From NCBI RefSeq assembly GCF_030814655.1, contig NZ_JAUSVK010000001.1, positions 3,789,001 through 3,853,000 on the forward strand: a stretch of 64,000 bases of DNA, read 5' to 3'. Each line of letters starts with the position of its first letter. Position 1 is the first letter of the stretch. Origin of the DNA: Labrys monachus. Lineage in GTDB: Bacteria > Pseudomonadota > Alphaproteobacteria > Rhizobiales > Labraceae. The notes under the pieces were generated by a model. It was not told where the DNA came from, searched no databases, and was given only the letters and a program-made list of their open reading frames with translations. Below are positions 50,389 through 64,000 of this stretch, one piece after another. The position numbers were made by a program, and so were the translations under genes.

Positions 50389-50615
50389 AACAATCCTCCC
50401 CGGCCTTTAGAGTAGCTGATGGGCCGAGAGTAATCGTCCTTCATCACGGAATGGCTCAAGCTACTCGTAGCAGATTGAGCCCCCGTTCGTCCGCACTCTT
50501 TCTTCGCGCAGAACATCCGAAACCTTGGGACTGCCAGGAGGGGAAAGCCTTCCCCTGCGCCCGAGCCTTGCGTCTCGGTCGACCCCTTCTGCGGGAGGCC
50601 CCGCAACGCCCCTTT

Positions 50616-50700
50616 GAGAGGAAGAGGACGGACCGGCTTTGCCGTGACGGGTTGAGGGCTGGAGAAGAGGTCTCCGGCGCCCGTCATGGAGATTGGTCCC
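50616..50700 (+). promoter_or_regulatory. Conserved hairpin leader A (DUF932 gene)
   Basis: A purine box (GAGAGGAAGAGGACGG) is followed by GACGGG (50646-50651), which can pair with CCCGTC (50680-50685). Inside is GGAGA/TCTCC (50661-50665 and 50671-50675). TGGAG follows as a ribosome binding site and then the ATG at 50701. Related leaders precede three other genes in this region. Confidence 0.7.
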
Positions 50701-51897
50701 ATGACCCAGGTTTCAGTTCTCGACGCGCGTCGCGACACCAGCGGCGGCTACAAAGTGGATGTCGGCCGCGGCGAGCGGATCGGCCGCGTCTCGTCGGAAT
50801 GGTTTTCCCGGCCCGCGGACGAGCGCTATCTGTCGCTGTCCGAACTGGCAGTTTCCGTTCGCGACCGCGCCGAACGCAGCCGGACCCGCGTGGTGGAGAG
50901 CGCGCTTATCCATGTCGAGGCGAACCGCAGCGACCCGGAACGACTGGCGTTGATCCTGCCAGGCACGGACACGCCCATCGCCCCGACCCATTGGAGCTTC
51001 GGCCAACTGGCCAGCCTGGTCGGCGCGCCGGCAGCCTATCTGCGCCAGCTTCCCGCACCGCTCGCCGCGATCAACCTGCAATATGGTCTGACGTCCAATC
51101 GTGCGGAGCAGATCAAGACGCTCGAAACCGATAACGGCCGGGTGGAGCTTCGCGCCGTCACCGGCCCGGATTACGGCCGCATCTTCGACCACGAACTGGT
51201 CGAGGCGGTGCAACGCATCGCCGGCAACGGCACGGGCGACACCCGCTGGAAGGTTCCGGGCGTGCTCGATTGGTCGACCGGCATCTACAATCCGCGGGTC
51301 GACATCACCAAGGATACCACGACGCTCTACGCCTCCGATCGCGACGTCTTCCTGTTCCTGGTCGACGACCTGAATCCGATCGAGGCCGGCCGACTGCCGG
51401 ACGGATCGCCCGATCTCTATTTCCGGGGCTTCTACTGCTGGAATTCCGAGGTTGGCGCCAAGACGCTGGGCATGGCGAGCTTCTATCTTCGCGCGGTCTG
51501 CCAGAATCGAAACCTCTGGGGCGTGGAGGATTTCGAGGAGATCACCATCCGCCACAGCAAATATGCCGCCAACCGTTTCGCCCATGAGGCGGCGCCAGCG
51601 CTGGCGAACTTCGCCAATTCCTCACCCTTGCCTTTCGTCAACGGTATCAAGGCGGCGCGCGAGCGGATCGTGGCGCGCACCGACGAAGACCGCACCGACT
51701 TCTTGCGCCGACGCGGTTTCTCCAAGGCCGAGACCGGCAAGATTATCGACACGGTCCTGGCAGAGGAAGGCCGTCCGCCCGAAAGCATCTTCGATTTCGT
51801 GCAGGGCATCACCGCCGTCGCGCGCGACAAGCCGCATCAGGACGCCCGCCTCGACATGGAGGCCAAGGCCAAGAAGCTGCTCGATCGAGCCGCCTGA
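50701..51897 (+). CDS. DUF932-domain protein
   Basis: A 398-aa protein of the phage/plasmid-like DUF932 family. It has the GQLASLVGAPAAYLRQLPAP segment, the LRAVTGPDYGRIFDHELVEA motif, and the FFRGFYCWNSEVG-like block (FRGFYCWNSEVGAKTLG) with FYLRAVCQNRNLWG. Its function is unknown, but it is common in large conjugative elements next to ParB and ArdB genes. The ATG at 50701 follows a TGGAG site inside a conserved hairpin leader, and a GC-rich hairpin follows the stop. Confidence 0.87.
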   Translation: MTQVSVLDARRDTSGGYKVDVGRGERIGRVSSEWFSRPADERYLSLSELAVSVRDRAERSRTRVVESALIHVEANRSDPERLALILPGTDTPIAPTHWSFGQLASLVGAPAAYLRQLPAPLAAINLQYGLTSNRAEQIKTLETDNGRVELRAVTGPDYGRIFDHELVEAVQRIAGNGTGDTRWKVPGVLDWSTGIYNPRVDITKDTTTLYASDRDVFLFLVDDLNPIEAGRLPDGSPDLYFRGFYCWNSEVGAKTLGMASFYLRAVCQNRNLWGVEDFEEITIRHSKYAANRFAHEAAPALANFANSSPLPFVNGIKAARERIVARTDEDRTDFLRRRGFSKAETGKIIDTVLAEEGRPPESIFDFVQGITAVARDKPHQDARLDMEAKAKKLLDRAA

Positions 51898-51940: not shown

Positions 51941-51986
51941 GCGCTTCCGCGTGTCCCAAATCCCGTTCCGTGGCGCTGCCCCCTTT

Positions 51987-52070
51987 TAGAGGAAGAGGCG
52001 GCGCTTCGCTTCGTGACGGGTTGGAGGTTGAGAGAGAGTCTCTCGGCCGCCCGTCGTGGAGTATCCCGAC
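51987..52070 (+). promoter_or_regulatory. Conserved hairpin leader B (ParB-like gene)
   Basis: TAGAGGAAGAGGCGG, then GACGGG (52015-52020) pairing with CCCGTC (52050-52055), and an inner GAGAGA/TCTCTC stem (52030-52035 and 52039-52044). Compared with leader A, the inner pairs differ but still pair. TGGAG then ATG (52071) follow. Confidence 0.72.
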
Positions 52071-54206
52071 ATGGCAACCGCCGTTCAGAAGATCGCGTCC
52101 CTTGGCGAGCGTCGCGACATCCCCTTCAACAAGCTCATCCTGAGCCAGGCCAACGTCCGCAAGACCAAGGCCGGCGTCTCGATCCCGGAACTGGCCGAGG
52201 ATATCGGCCACCGCGGCCTTCTTCAGAACCTCAACGTCCGCCCTGTGCTCGATGGCGAGGGTGTGGAAACCGGCATCTTCGAGGTCCCGGCCGGCGGTCG
52301 CCGGTTCCGGGCGCTCGAACTACTGGTCAAGGTCAAGCGACTGGCCAAGACCGCGCCGGTCCCCTGCAACGTCCGCGACGCTGGCTCCGCGATCCCCGCC
52401 GAGGAAGACAGCCTCGCCGAGAACGTCCACCGCGAGGCGCTGCATCCCCTCGATCAGTTCAAAGCCTTCCAGGCCCTGATCGAACGCGGCATGGGCGAGG
52501 AGGATATCGCCGCCCGCTTCTACGTCACCCCGGCCGTGGTCCGTCAGCGGCTGCGCCTCGCTTCGGTCGCCCCGGCGCTGCTCGACGTCTATGCCGAGGA
52601 CGGCATAGCGCTCGACCAACTCATGGCCTTCACCGTGTCGCACGACCATGCGCGGCAGATGGAGGTGTGGGAGACGATCCAGCGATCCTACAGCCGCCAG
52701 CCCTACGAAATCCGCCGCATGTTGACCGAGGGTGCGGTGCGCGCTTCCGATCGCCGTGCGCAGTTCGTCGGGGTCGAGGCGTATGAGGCAGCCGGCGGCG
52801 CAACGCTGCGCGACCTGTTCCAGGCCGACGACGGCGGATGGCTGCAGGACCCGGCTCTTCTCGACACCCTCGCCACCGCGAAGCTCGGCGCCGCCGCCGA
52901 GGAAATCGCGGCCGAGGGCTGGCGCTGGATCGATGCCGCGCTGGACTTCCCCTATGGCCACACCACTGGTCTGCGCAGGATCTCGTGCGAACGCCCCGAA
53001 CTCTCCGCCGACGAACAGGCCGCCTACGAGGCCCTGACCGAGGAGCTGGACCGGCTCTACGCCGAGCATGAAGATGGCGAGGACCTGCCGGAGGCAGTCG
53101 ATCTACGGCTCGAGGAGATCGAGACGGCGATCGCCGCCTTCCAGAACCGGCCTACCCTCTACGATCGGGCCGAGATCGTGCGCGCTGGCGCCTTTGTCAG
53201 CATCGACAGCTCGGGCCGGCTGACCGTCGAGCGCGGCTATGTCCGTCCCGAAGACGAGGCGCCGATCGAGCCCCGGACCGATGGCGACGGCGAAGCCGAA
53301 GGAACGACGACGACCTCGGAACCTATGCGAGCGGTCATCACCATCGGCGGCAAGCCCGAACCGGAGGATGACGAGGACGATGTCGTCAAGCCGTTGCCCG
53401 AACGCCTGGTCAGCGAGCTGACGGCCCACCGCACCCTCGCGCTGCGGGATGCGCTGGCCGGCAACCCGCACGTCGCCATCACGGCGCTGCTGCACAAGCT
53501 GGTGCTCGACACCTTCCACCGCACCTCGTCTTCCGGAGGGTGCCTGGAGGTGTCCGTCCGTCACGTCTTCTTCTCCGTCCAGGCCGCCGACCTGAAGGAC
53601 AGCACGTCCGCCAAATCGGTTGCAGAACGGCAAGAAGGCTGGGAGGCCGACATTCCGCAGGACGAGGATGCCTTGTGGAACTGGCTGGTCGATCTCGACG
53701 ATGCCAGCCGGACGGCCCTGCTGGCGCATTGCGTCTCTTACGGCGTCAACGCCCTTTCCGAAAAGGTCGACCGCTACGGCGGCTCCGGCATCTCGCAGCA
53801 TGGGCTGGAGCGCCGGCTGAAGCAGGCCGATCGGATCGCGCGCGCTGTCGGTCTCGACATGGCGGAAGCGGGATGGCGCCCGACCGTCGATAATTATCTC
53901 AGCCGGGTGACCAAGCCGCGCATCCTCGAAGCGGTGCGTGAGGCCAAGGGCGACGCGTCGGCGCAGCTCATCGACCATCTGAAGAAGGGCGACATGGCCA
54001 AGGAGGCCGAGCGGCTGTTGACCGACACCGGCTGGCTGCCCGAACCGCTTCGGCTCGCTGATCTTGCAGACGATCCCGCAACGGGCGCTGAGAGCGACGG
54101 AGAAGACGATGGGGCGGAACTGCCCGACTTCCTGAGCACCGACGAGGAATCGGAACCGCTGGCCGACGGCGAAGACGACGAGCGTCACCTCGTTGCTGCC
54201 GAATGA
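52071..54206 (+). CDS. ParB-like nuclease-fold/partition-type protein
   Basis: A 711-aa protein. The N-terminal ParB domain has IPFNKLILSQANVRKTKAGV, the GGRRFRALELL box, and SLAENVHREALHPLDQFKAF, followed by an HTH (DIAARFYVTPAVVRQRLRLA). Well beyond ParB length, it carries a long C-terminal region with an acidic linker (KPEPEDDEDDVVKPLPE) and a helical domain that probably binds partners. Such long ParB-like proteins are typical of alphaproteobacterial ICEs and plasmids and may regulate the element as well as segregate it. It is preceded by leader B. Confidence 0.88.
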   Translation: MATAVQKIASLGERRDIPFNKLILSQANVRKTKAGVSIPELAEDIGHRGLLQNLNVRPVLDGEGVETGIFEVPAGGRRFRALELLVKVKRLAKTAPVPCNVRDAGSAIPAEEDSLAENVHREALHPLDQFKAFQALIERGMGEEDIAARFYVTPAVVRQRLRLASVAPALLDVYAEDGIALDQLMAFTVSHDHARQMEVWETIQRSYSRQPYEIRRMLTEGAVRASDRRAQFVGVEAYEAAGGATLRDLFQADDGGWLQDPALLDTLATAKLGAAAEEIAAEGWRWIDAALDFPYGHTTGLRRISCERPELSADEQAAYEALTEELDRLYAEHEDGEDLPEAVDLRLEEIETAIAAFQNRPTLYDRAEIVRAGAFVSIDSSGRLTVERGYVRPEDEAPIEPRTDGDGEAEGTTTTSEPMRAVITIGGKPEPEDDEDDVVKPLPERLVSELTAHRTLALRDALAGNPHVAITALLHKLVLDTFHRTSSSGGCLEVSVRHVFFSVQAADLKDSTSAKSVAERQEGWEADIPQDEDALWNWLVDLDDASRTALLAHCVSYGVNALSEKVDRYGGSGISQHGLERRLKQADRIARAVGLDMAEAGWRPTVDNYLSRVTKPRILEAVREAKGDASAQLIDHLKKGDMAKEAERLLTDTGWLPEPLRLADLADDPATGAESDGEDDGAELPDFLSTDEESEPLADGEDDERHLVAAE

Positions 54207-55560: not shown

Positions 55561-55710
55561 CGTCTCCCTCCGGGGCCTCGCTCGGTCGGGCGTACATGCG
55601 TCCCCGATCGCCGAGGGCGCGGTTCGCCATGTGCTGGATGAAGATGAAGGAGTGTAGCGCCGCGCGGTCCACCTCGGAAGGCCGCGCGATCAGCCGGTCA
55701 TGCCGCGCGC

Positions 55711-55804
55711 CAGAGTGAGAGGGCGGCCGGGACGGGTTCGAGCCGGTCCGGTCGAGAGAGAGCGCCGTCCGGGTCTTCCGATCCCGCTCTTTGGAGAAAT
55801 CCCC
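55711..55804 (+). promoter_or_regulatory. Conserved leader C (ArdB-like gene)
   Basis: CAGAGTGAGAGGGCGG, then GGGACGGGTT, then GAGAGAGAGCGC. GGACGG (55730-55735) can pair with CCGTCC (55765-55770). TTTGGAG precedes the ATG at 55805. Primary sequence is closest to leader D. Confidence 0.68.
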
Positions 55805-56242
55805 ATGCCCGACACTACAAACAGCACTGACGCTTCCTCGGCGCGCGCCGTCGCCCTCGTACCGGAGGCCCGCCGGATGGACTTCCTGCCGCTGCTCTTC
55901 GGTCGCCAGCATGTCCTGGTGGCGGAGATGATCGTCTATCACCTGATGGAGCGCCTGAGCCCGCTCGACTATCGTGGCGGCCTTTGGGACTTCTATGAGC
56001 GCGACGGCAGGCCGCTATACCTCGCGCCGACCTCGAAGCCCCGCTTTCAGATCGTCTGCGACACCAACGGCTATGAGGGCGAGGTAACGGCCGACGCCGC
56101 CGGCATCATCGCGACGCTGTTCGCCTTCTCCCATCTCTCCTTCAAGTACCCGGTCGACGCGATGTCGGAAGGATATGGCCGCCTCTACGACTACGCCGCA
56201 GACCATCCGGAATCCGCCGAGATCTTCCAGGCGATCGACTGA
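55805..56242 (+). CDS. ArdB/KlcA-family antirestriction protein
   Basis: A 145-aa protein. RRMDFLPLLFGRQHVLVAEM, the YRGGLWDFYE motif, and TADAAGIIATLFAFSHLSFK are the ArdB/KlcA signatures. ArdB proteins protect incoming DNA from type I restriction by an indirect mechanism. The ATG at 55805 lies behind leader C, and a strong terminator follows. On an element that also carries a defence island, it probably shields the element in new hosts. Confidence 0.88.
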   Translation: MPDTTNSTDASSARAVALVPEARRMDFLPLLFGRQHVLVAEMIVYHLMERLSPLDYRGGLWDFYERDGRPLYLAPTSKPRFQIVCDTNGYEGEVTADAAGIIATLFAFSHLSFKYPVDAMSEGYGRLYDYAADHPESAEIFQAID

Positions 56243-61789: not shown

Positions 61790-62102
61790 GCCGCAAGGAG
61801 AAGGCTGGCGGCGGGAGCGCCGTCGTCGGCATCGCTCGGATGATCCCCAGGTCGGAGAGAACCGCGCCCCGGCCTTCGAGAGGGCGATCGGCCAGCAAAC
61901 GGGCCGGACCAGCAATGTCTGCGGCGGACTATTTTCCGGCGCGGCCGAGAGCCGCTTTCCATCGCGAAACAAAATAGCGCGCCTTCGCCATCCTCCGCTG
62001 TGCTCCGGCCCTCCGCTTCGCTGCGGATGCAGGTCCGGCCCGCCCGCCGGCTTTCGTCGCCATGAAGGCCGCGAGGGTCGCGGTCGACCGACGGAGCATC
62101 CC
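61790..62102 (+). other. Leader region of the DUF2493 gene
   Basis: About 310 bases without a supportable gene. Close to the start codon is the hairpin CCGCGA/TCGCGG (62069-62083, loop GGG), followed by CGGAG and the ATG at 62103. This resembles the placement in leaders A-D, but the GACGGGTT and GAGAGAG boxes are missing. Confidence 0.5.
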
Positions 62103-63048: not shown

Positions 63049-63609
63049 TCACAGCATCTCGGGTCGGAACAGCGATCTGCGGCTGATGATCTTGCCGGAC
63101 ACCACGAACACGCCATCGCCGGTGTAGTGCAGCGTCTCGGGATGCTTTGGCGATGCGGCCACATGCGCCTTCACCACCTCGAAGATGAAGAAATTATACT
63201 TCTCGACCAGTGCGTCGTTGTGAAGGCGGCATTCGAAGCTGGCATGGCATTCGCCGATCAACGGCGCATCGACCTTGCTCGCGTCTTCCGCCGTGAGATT
63301 GAATTTAGCGAACTTGTCGATTTCGCCCCCCGACGTGTTGCCGATCCCGACCACGGTATCGGTCAGCGATGTCGTCGGTAGGTTGATCACGCACTCCCGG
63401 CTCTCGCGGATCATCCGGTGGCTGTGATTGCCGCCGGAGATCATTAGGCCGACCAGAGACGGCGAAAACTCCAGGATCGTGTGCCAGCCGAGCGTCATGA
63501 TGTTCGTCGCGCCCTGCCACTTCGACGACACCAGCACGATCGGGCCGGGCTCCAGATAGCGCCGCACCTGGCTCACCGGGAAATCGCTCTTCTTAGGCAG
63601 CTTCGGCAT
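63049..63609 (-). CDS. Flavin reductase-family protein
   Basis: A 186-aa protein. PIVLVSSKWQGATNIMTLGW, PSLVGLMISGGNHSHRMIRE, and ECVINLPTTSLTDTV form the FMN-binding split-barrel fold of the flavin reductase-like family, which reduces FMN/FAD or binds flavin. The ATG at 63609 is preferred because AAGAGG stands 6 bases upstream; an ATG at 63615 directly abuts it. It is unusual cargo among maintenance genes and is transcribed against them. Confidence 0.87.
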   Translation of the reverse strand: MPKLPKKSDFPVSQVRRYLEPGPIVLVSSKWQGATNIMTLGWHTILEFSPSLVGLMISGGNHSHRMIRESRECVINLPTTSLTDTVVGIGNTSGGEIDKFAKFNLTAEDASKVDAPLIGECHASFECRLHNDALVEKYNFFIFEVVKAHVAASPKHPETLHYTGDGVFVVSGKIISRRSLFRPEML

Positions 63610-63896
63610 GGGCATCCTCTTCGGCTGTTGCGCTTCGCATGACCATACCCGGCCATGTCGGCAGCATCACGACCGACAGCATCGCGGCGATGCTTTGGCG
63701 CGAAAGCACTGAGTGGGCGTTTCCATCATGGCCCCGGTCATGGCGGAAAACCATCTCCCGCTTCCAATGCGCTAATCCTTGGTCCAGCCGCTGGCCTGAC
63801 GCCATCAACCCGTAAAGGGTCGGACTACGCAAAGCGTGCCGCCGCTCCGGCTTTGCCTGCGCGGTGATTGCGGCCATCGGCCGGACACATCGGGCG
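63610..63896. other. Intergenic region
   Basis: About 290 bases between the flavin reductase start and the next leader. A minus-strand frame (63593-63877, 94 codons) overlaps the reductase start and shows no known domain. It is probably promoter region for both sides. Confidence 0.4.
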
Positions 63897-63935
63897 CCTG
63901 TCGCGCGGGAGATGGTCTCCCGCCTCCAAGACAGG
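63897..63935 (+). promoter_or_regulatory. Nested hairpin leader before the right-edge gene
   Basis: Outer arms CCTGTC/GACAGG (63897-63902 and 63930-63935) and inner arms GCGGGAGA/TCTCCCGC (63905-63912 and 63916-63923). The 3' outer arm overlaps the AGGAG ribosome binding site of the gene at 63946. The layout resembles leaders A and B, with different sequence. Confidence 0.6.
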
Positions 63936-63945
63936 AGCCGGTCAC

Positions 63946-64000
63946 ATGTCCCTCAATCAAGCTCACGCCTACGCCTTCAGCCTCGCCACCACCCTCATGG
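63946..64000 (+). CDS. Start of a gene cut by the right edge
   Basis: The ATG at 63946 is 10 bases after AGGAG. The 18 visible codons read MSLNQAHAYAFSLATTLM. The family cannot be told from this length. The preceding nested hairpin and same strand suggest another member of the element's maintenance module. Confidence 0.6.
   Translation, partial: MSLNQAHAYAFSLATTLM

Follow-up and report, generated by a model that had tools for sequence, protein, structure and literature searches.

Translational riboswitches that sequester the Shine-Dalgarno (SD) sequence consist of a folded domain followed by an SD hairpin and a mutually exclusive alternative helix. Folded elements of conjugative DNA include the Frpo/ssi single-strand promoters, which PMC11541004 describes on conjugative elements. 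Candidate structured RNAs, some of them alphaproteobacterial, are presented in PMC2864571 and include traJ-II, SAM/SAH, flg-Rhizobiales, Rhizobiales-1 and Rhizobiales-2.

The locus considered here lies in a 64,000-nucleotide stretch of the Labrys monachus genome (hereafter the window; G000:C1:3789001-3853000 of a 6.9-Mb single-contig genome). An earlier note on this DNA had drawn attention to a nested hairpin overlapping the ribosome binding site of the gene at the right edge. The arms are located exactly as claimed and the overlap with the SD stands, but the description was too narrow, as the hairpin is the last quarter, at the 3' end, of a leader of ~200 nt that contains a four-way junction and precedes a 55-aa open reading frame (ORF) (Table 1).

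The leader shares with translational riboswitches a folded domain, an SD hairpin and an exclusive alternative helix. The domain is conserved, covaries and lies in an mRNA leader, and the P0 and P6 pairings described below appear, from sequence comparison, to be mutually exclusive and to covary both. In contrast to such riboswitches, no metabolic gene lies downstream and no Rfam class is matched. With the Frpo/ssi promoters (PMC11541004) the locus has in common that an intergenic element of conjugative DNA is folded and conserved; it differs in that the wobble pairs outside P1 favour the coding strand over its complement and that promoter-like boxes were not found. A -35/-10 pair within the fold was not found: 0 sigma-70-like sites were detected in L003:1-1500, which spans the leader, although alphaproteobacterial promoters may differ.

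An Rfam 15 covariance scan of the whole window gave 0 matches at the gathering score, which applies also to those motifs of PMC2864571 that are in Rfam; Rhizobiales-1 has no Rfam number in Table 1 of that paper. A lax scan (E up to 10) of 63700-64000 returned only a chance sR4 match (E 9.2). No published description of the leader was found in the searchable text, outside of which lie most subscription papers and all supplements. The element looks like a cis-acting translational leader RNA, outside the Rfam families and apparently undescribed.

Within the window, the nearest counterparts are leaders A and B, the GACGGGUU leaders of DUF932-like and ParB-like genes, which have in common with this RNA a nested hairpin reaching the SD and the same mobile elements. 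RNAfold places the SD of leader A within a comparable nested stem; the arms are present in leader B, but its minimum-free-energy structure pairs part of them elsewhere. Leaders A and B differ in sharing no boxes with this RNA, in lacking the four-way junction and in being unmatched by the covariance model R1 described below; each element carries several copies of them, as against two copies of this RNA in the genome. The likeness in layout without shared boxes, as first noted, is borne out: none of leaders A-D is matched when R1 is run on the window, and the boxes of the GACGGGUU leaders (A-D), namely AGAGGAAGAGG, GACGGGTT and CCCGTC, are absent from 63750-63945.

Architecture of the leader

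R1 matches the window at 63769-63948 (184 bits, E 4e-43), and the upstream flank is conserved from the 5' box onwards. In the window copy, helices P1b, P2, P3 and P4 form a four-way junction with zero unpaired linker. P1b lies outside R1; two-sided changes affect 24 of its cells, compared with 4.4 in shuffles, and 56 of 97 sequences are without a standard pair at one of its positions. One pair of P2 varies on both sides in the held-out alignment of 12 homologues. Column pair 75-99 of P3 is GC in 72 sequences and CG in 25, and pair 83-95 is CG in 75 and UA in 20. An extra 5' helix, GCGCU/GGCGC, failed when tested (11/200) and was not retained. The antisense strand of the leader (window 63724-63899, minus) gives a weak R1 match of 24.7 bits, in keeping with the many inverted repeats of the leader.

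Table 1. Features of the leader and the downstream ORF (positions in the window).
Feature	Positions	Strand	Remarks
Whole conserved leader	63750..63945	+	5' box to base before start codon; R1 match and flank conservation
5' box ACCATCTCCCGC	63750..63761	+	exact reverse complement of 63905-63916 (P0)
P1, 5' strand	63782..63796	+	pairs with 63872-63886; closing stem of the domain
P1b, 5' strand GCCATCA	63801..63807	+	pairs with 63865-63871, one C.U mismatch
P2 hairpin ACCC/GGGT	63808..63820	+	97/97 paired, invariant in 97-locus alignment A4
P3 hairpin CGG..ACGC/GCGT.CCG	63821..63841	+	covarying pairs 75-99 and 83-95
P4 hairpin CCGC/GCGG, inner GGC/GCC	63842..63864	+	covariation, tree-based test
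P1b, 3' strand TGATTGC	63865..63871	+	pairs with 63801-63807
P1, 3' strand	63872..63886	+	pairs with 63782-63796
P5, 5' arm GGCGCCTGTC	63893..63902	+	extended form of the originally noted outer arm
P6, 5' arm GCGGGAGA	63905..63912	+	also target of the 5' box
P6, 3' arm TCTCCCGC	63916..63923	+	pairs with P6 5' arm
P5, 3' arm GACAGGAGCC	63930..63939	+	contains the SD, AGGAG 63933-63937
55-aa ORF, start	63946..64000	+	ATG at 63946; runs past the window; complete in L003:447-614

The nested hairpin comprises an outer stem, P5, and an inner stem, P6. The outer arms first noted, CCTGTC (63897-63902) and GACAGG (63930-63935), do overlap the SD, but the stem is longer than had been supposed: GGC (63893-63895) pairs with GCC (63937-63939) past one G.A mismatch, and therefore all of AGGAG, rather than part of it, lies inside the outer stem. 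The arms are GC-rich and the hairpin energy is ~-30 kcal/mol (computed at 37 C). The energy of the 72-nt stretch is ordinary (z -1.77), with 11 of 200 dinucleotide shuffles folding equally well. In the 75-nt tails of 97 sequences, GGAG has a mean pairing probability of 0.71, which exceeds 0.8 in just 5%.

The reality of the hairpin is settled by comparison between sequences, not by single-sequence energy. The earlier note had staked its proposal on conservation of the arms in relatives, and they are kept, with 91.5% of P5 cells and 98.6% of P6 cells paired in 97 homologues. One P5 column pair, 215-250, is paired in only 49 of the 97. Several held-out homologues have the outer arms CCATCG/CGATGG instead of CCTGTC/GACAGG.

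Distribution, gene context and covariation

An R1 search finds the leader twice in the Labrys monachus genome. The second copy (G000:C1:1206456-1206629; L004) aligns well, and with long identical stretches, in the ~170 bases upstream of the gene; its ORF, apparently frame-shifted, has just 38 codons from the ATG. DNA matches to the conserved block were found in 259 of 72,556 plasmid records (71 with at least 80% query coverage) and, counting short partial matches, in 41 of 297 genomes from the order to which Labrys belongs. A covariance search scoring few candidates per genome found the leader in at least 8 of 385 genomes of the class. A pattern taken from the middle of the conserved block recovered at least 120 loci, nearly all of which show the block and then a start codon.

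The window ends 55 bases into the small ORF, whose length is 53 to 57 codons in 127 of 139 copies, the others being truncated, longer or running on. The protein downstream of the leader is conserved. It belongs to no Pfam, NCBIfam or PHROGs family, and a profile search against solved structures gave nothing better than E 0.058. Its AlphaFold model (pLDDT 93) has one helix and three strands; Foldseek with this model found no match at E<=0.001 among solved structures.

Upstream lies a cluster of DUF932-like, ParB-like, Antirestrict (PF03230), strawberry-notch-type helicase, Toprim and YAcAr (DUF2493) genes, the first two with Pfam matches below the cut-offs. A Mesorhizobium plasmid has the Toprim, DUF2493 and small-ORF genes annotated in this order, as does a Sphingobium plasmid with one additional hypothetical gene between. 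A minus-strand ORF (63049-63615) separates the DUF2493 gene from the leader here, unlike in L037; the leader therefore probably has its own promoter or uses read-through.

Several genes of the cluster have structured leaders of their own. The simpler hairpin reported before the DUF2493 gene (62069-62083, CCGCGAGGGTCGCGG) is present in the sequence, but it ends 19 nt before the ATG, compared with 10 nt for the hairpin studied here; the earlier note had put the two at the same distance. The simpler hairpin is enclosed by a longer pairing that extends to the SD, and CTTTC/GAAGG could form a competing local hairpin. This DUF2493 (YAcAr) leader (window 62045-62102) is conserved in 44 loci. Leaders A and B (window 50584-50703 and 51965-52073) belong to a second conserved leader family, GACGGGTT..CCCGTC..GGAG, with no Rfam match in the window scan. 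This pattern has 48 matches in the loci examined, with up to three copies per 8-kb locus (L058, L104), and precedes different genes; leader A matches 49 plasmid records. Leader C (window 55700-56242) precedes an ArdB/KlcA-type antirestriction gene (PF03230, E 3e-36).

Homologues of the leader were assembled as follows. Fifteen loci were dropped as chance matches or as lacking an SD-ATG element (L015, L033, L034, L036, L089, L095, L101, L126, L132, L133, L139, L141, L150, L156 and L158), leaving 139 elements, 61 of them at <90% identity. Alignment A2 comprised 60 of these 61 (L014, in which an arm is deleted, was left out) and five rows with another arm. The 47-pair structure was written from 65 sequences, on which R1 was built. 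When R1 was run on 100 loci, the expected negatives L036, L089 and L101 were unmatched and three weak extra matches appeared; a stricter cut removed these three, and with 97 loci given, 97/97 were matched (alignment A4).

Across the 97 homologues, 92.6% of 4,472 cells of the 47 pairs are standard pairs, compared with just 39-42% when the structure is slid by 1-3 columns. Changes on both sides occur in 33 of the 47 pairs and in 407 cells, as opposed to 117.7 in shuffles (0 of 500 as good) and at most 80 in slid structures. The alignment was fitted to the structure, so it leans towards it. A tree-based null, in which the substitutions of each FastTree branch were redistributed and E was corrected for 54 pairs, placed 12 of the 54 pairs at E<0.05 on this structure-fitted alignment, in P1, P3, P4 and P6; that cut lets through just 3 of the 14,997 remaining column pairs. 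Taken singly, the P5 pairs lie above E<0.05 (best 0.28), and the signal of the P6 pairs 218-238 and 219-237 comes in part from arms whose register differs by one. On the initial MAFFT alignment the tree-based test had given a weak signal, with one pair at E<0.05 counting all column pairs, partly because the stems were out of register.

Wobble pairs bear on the strand that folds. Outside P1, and with pair 215-250 excluded, the coding strand has 92 G.U cells and 19 A.C cells, which favours the mRNA strand as the one that folds; inside P1 the balance is reversed, with 110 A.C and 48 G.U.

A held-out set was obtained by searching plasmids with the protein alone (279 records), and 12 homologues were taken from 40 listed, chosen by eye for diversity with Agrobacterium and Allorhizobium rows passed over. 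R1 matched just upstream of the protein in 12/12 (77 to 154 bits), and the match ended on the annotated start codon in 9/9 of those with a start annotated on that strand. In this set 91.7% of cells are paired, and two-sided changes occur in 28 of 47 pairs and in 79 cells, compared with 25.9 cells in shuffles (0/500 as good).

The alternative helix P0

The 5' box is complementary to 63905-63916, the stretch of P6 that comprises its 5' arm and loop. Across homologues, the upstream flank has the consensus box ACCA(T/C)CCCCGCT, and variants of the box are accompanied by matching variants of the arm: CCATTTCCCCGC with GCGGGGAATGG (L051), CACTCCCCGC with GCGGGGAGTG (L047), CCGTCCC with GGGACGG (L004), CCGA with TCGG (L156, L034, L169) and CCAAT with ATTGG (L173, L174). 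Box and arm do not match in L145 and L175. Many loci have a loose motif, GGCTCCTG..CG, at ~10-25 nt upstream of the box, which could be a promoter mark.

Exchanging partners between sequences lowers the complementarity. The local score of P0 is 23.4 with its own partner and 21.8 with swapped partners (0/200 swaps as good). In 96 sequences the duplex energy is -20.6 with the own partner, -18.8 with swapped ones (0/100 swaps as good) and -13.1 for control windows 100-150 nt upstream; in the held-out set it is -20.9 as against -18.4 (0/500 swaps as good).

P0 and P6 draw on shared bases and are therefore mutually exclusive alternatives. When either state is forced on the 96 sequences, P0 is lower than P5/P6 by a mean of 3.5 kcal/mol (sd 7.7), and in 48% of them the two lie at most 5 kcal/mol apart. 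The unforced fold of the window copy is the P0 form. In the nearest-neighbour model, a mean of 3.7 of 4 SD bases are paired in the forced P0 state and 3.0 in the P5/P6 state; since the SD is mostly paired in the modelled P0 state, release of the SD by P0 does not emerge from the model.

Proposed function and alternatives

The leader probably acts in cis as a switch of translation on conjugative elements, with P5/P6 as the expression platform for the 55-aa ORF. As the comparison of homologues shows, the closing helix P1 leads into the four-way junction of P2, P3 and P4, and the nested hairpin P5/P6 downstream buries AGGAG. Ribosomes would be kept off as long as P5/P6 is formed. If P0 takes the P6 arm, P6 would be lost and P5 weakened, and the SD would become reachable. 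The junction domain, inside the P0 loop, would be the likely sensor that chooses between P0 and P5/P6, answering perhaps to an element-encoded or host protein, a small molecule or an ion. We infer the direction of the switch, with P5/P6 closed and P0 open.

Control of translation without sensing is rather unlikely but deserves the most attention among the alternatives. The leader might be a site for an RNA-binding protein of the element or host, or a stabilising cap, with P0 part of a static pseudoknot. P0 and P5 might coexist in such a pseudoknot, which geometry would in principle allow, and in the model the SD stays paired in the P0 state. Several unrelated leaders with SD stems on these elements would also fit one common trans-acting regulator. 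The bases shared by P0 and P6 argue against a static arrangement, since these helices, at the least, cannot form together and both covary. Folding as single-stranded DNA during conjugation, as a Frpo/ssi-type promoter letting the recipient RNA polymerase read the entering strand, is very unlikely. Such promoters are known on conjugative elements (PMC11541004), and this locus is on such elements near antirestriction-type genes, Pfam Antirestrict following leader C. However, the excess of G.U over A.C outside P1 favours folding of the coding strand, no -35/-10-like pair was found in L003:1-1500, and conservation extends to the SD and start codon, the last stem being placed for translation.

It is extremely unlikely that the leader is an RNA thermometer in which heat melts the SD hairpin: an SD-burying hairpin is in the right place, but its computed stability and GC-rich arms speak against melting, and a large conserved junction domain would be superfluous. 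That the hairpin is due to chance, or its conservation to a hidden reading frame, has a probability close to nil. Shuffled sequences do fold nearly as well; this is countered by covariation in two sets (97 loci and the held-out 12), which refutes chance, and by gaps, judged by eye, that are not multiples of three between the window copy and its paralogue.

Beyond the switch itself, we tentatively suggest a broader reading, which is possible rather than probable: the leader may represent a new class of sensor RNA of conjugative elements, in which the junction picks the 5'-box helix or the SD hairpin and in this way sets when the 55-aa protein is made, perhaps as the element arrives in a new host. 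Along with the GACGGGUU and DUF2493 leaders, it may be part of an element-wide translational control by several unrelated leader RNAs.

This RNA is widespread and strongly conserved in Alphaproteobacteria, where conjugative plasmids and integrated elements carry it, and, where tested, is linked to one small uncharacterised protein. If the switch is real, it would provide a handle on how conjugative elements control when their genes are expressed, and a defined RNA with which to screen for ligands or protein partners.
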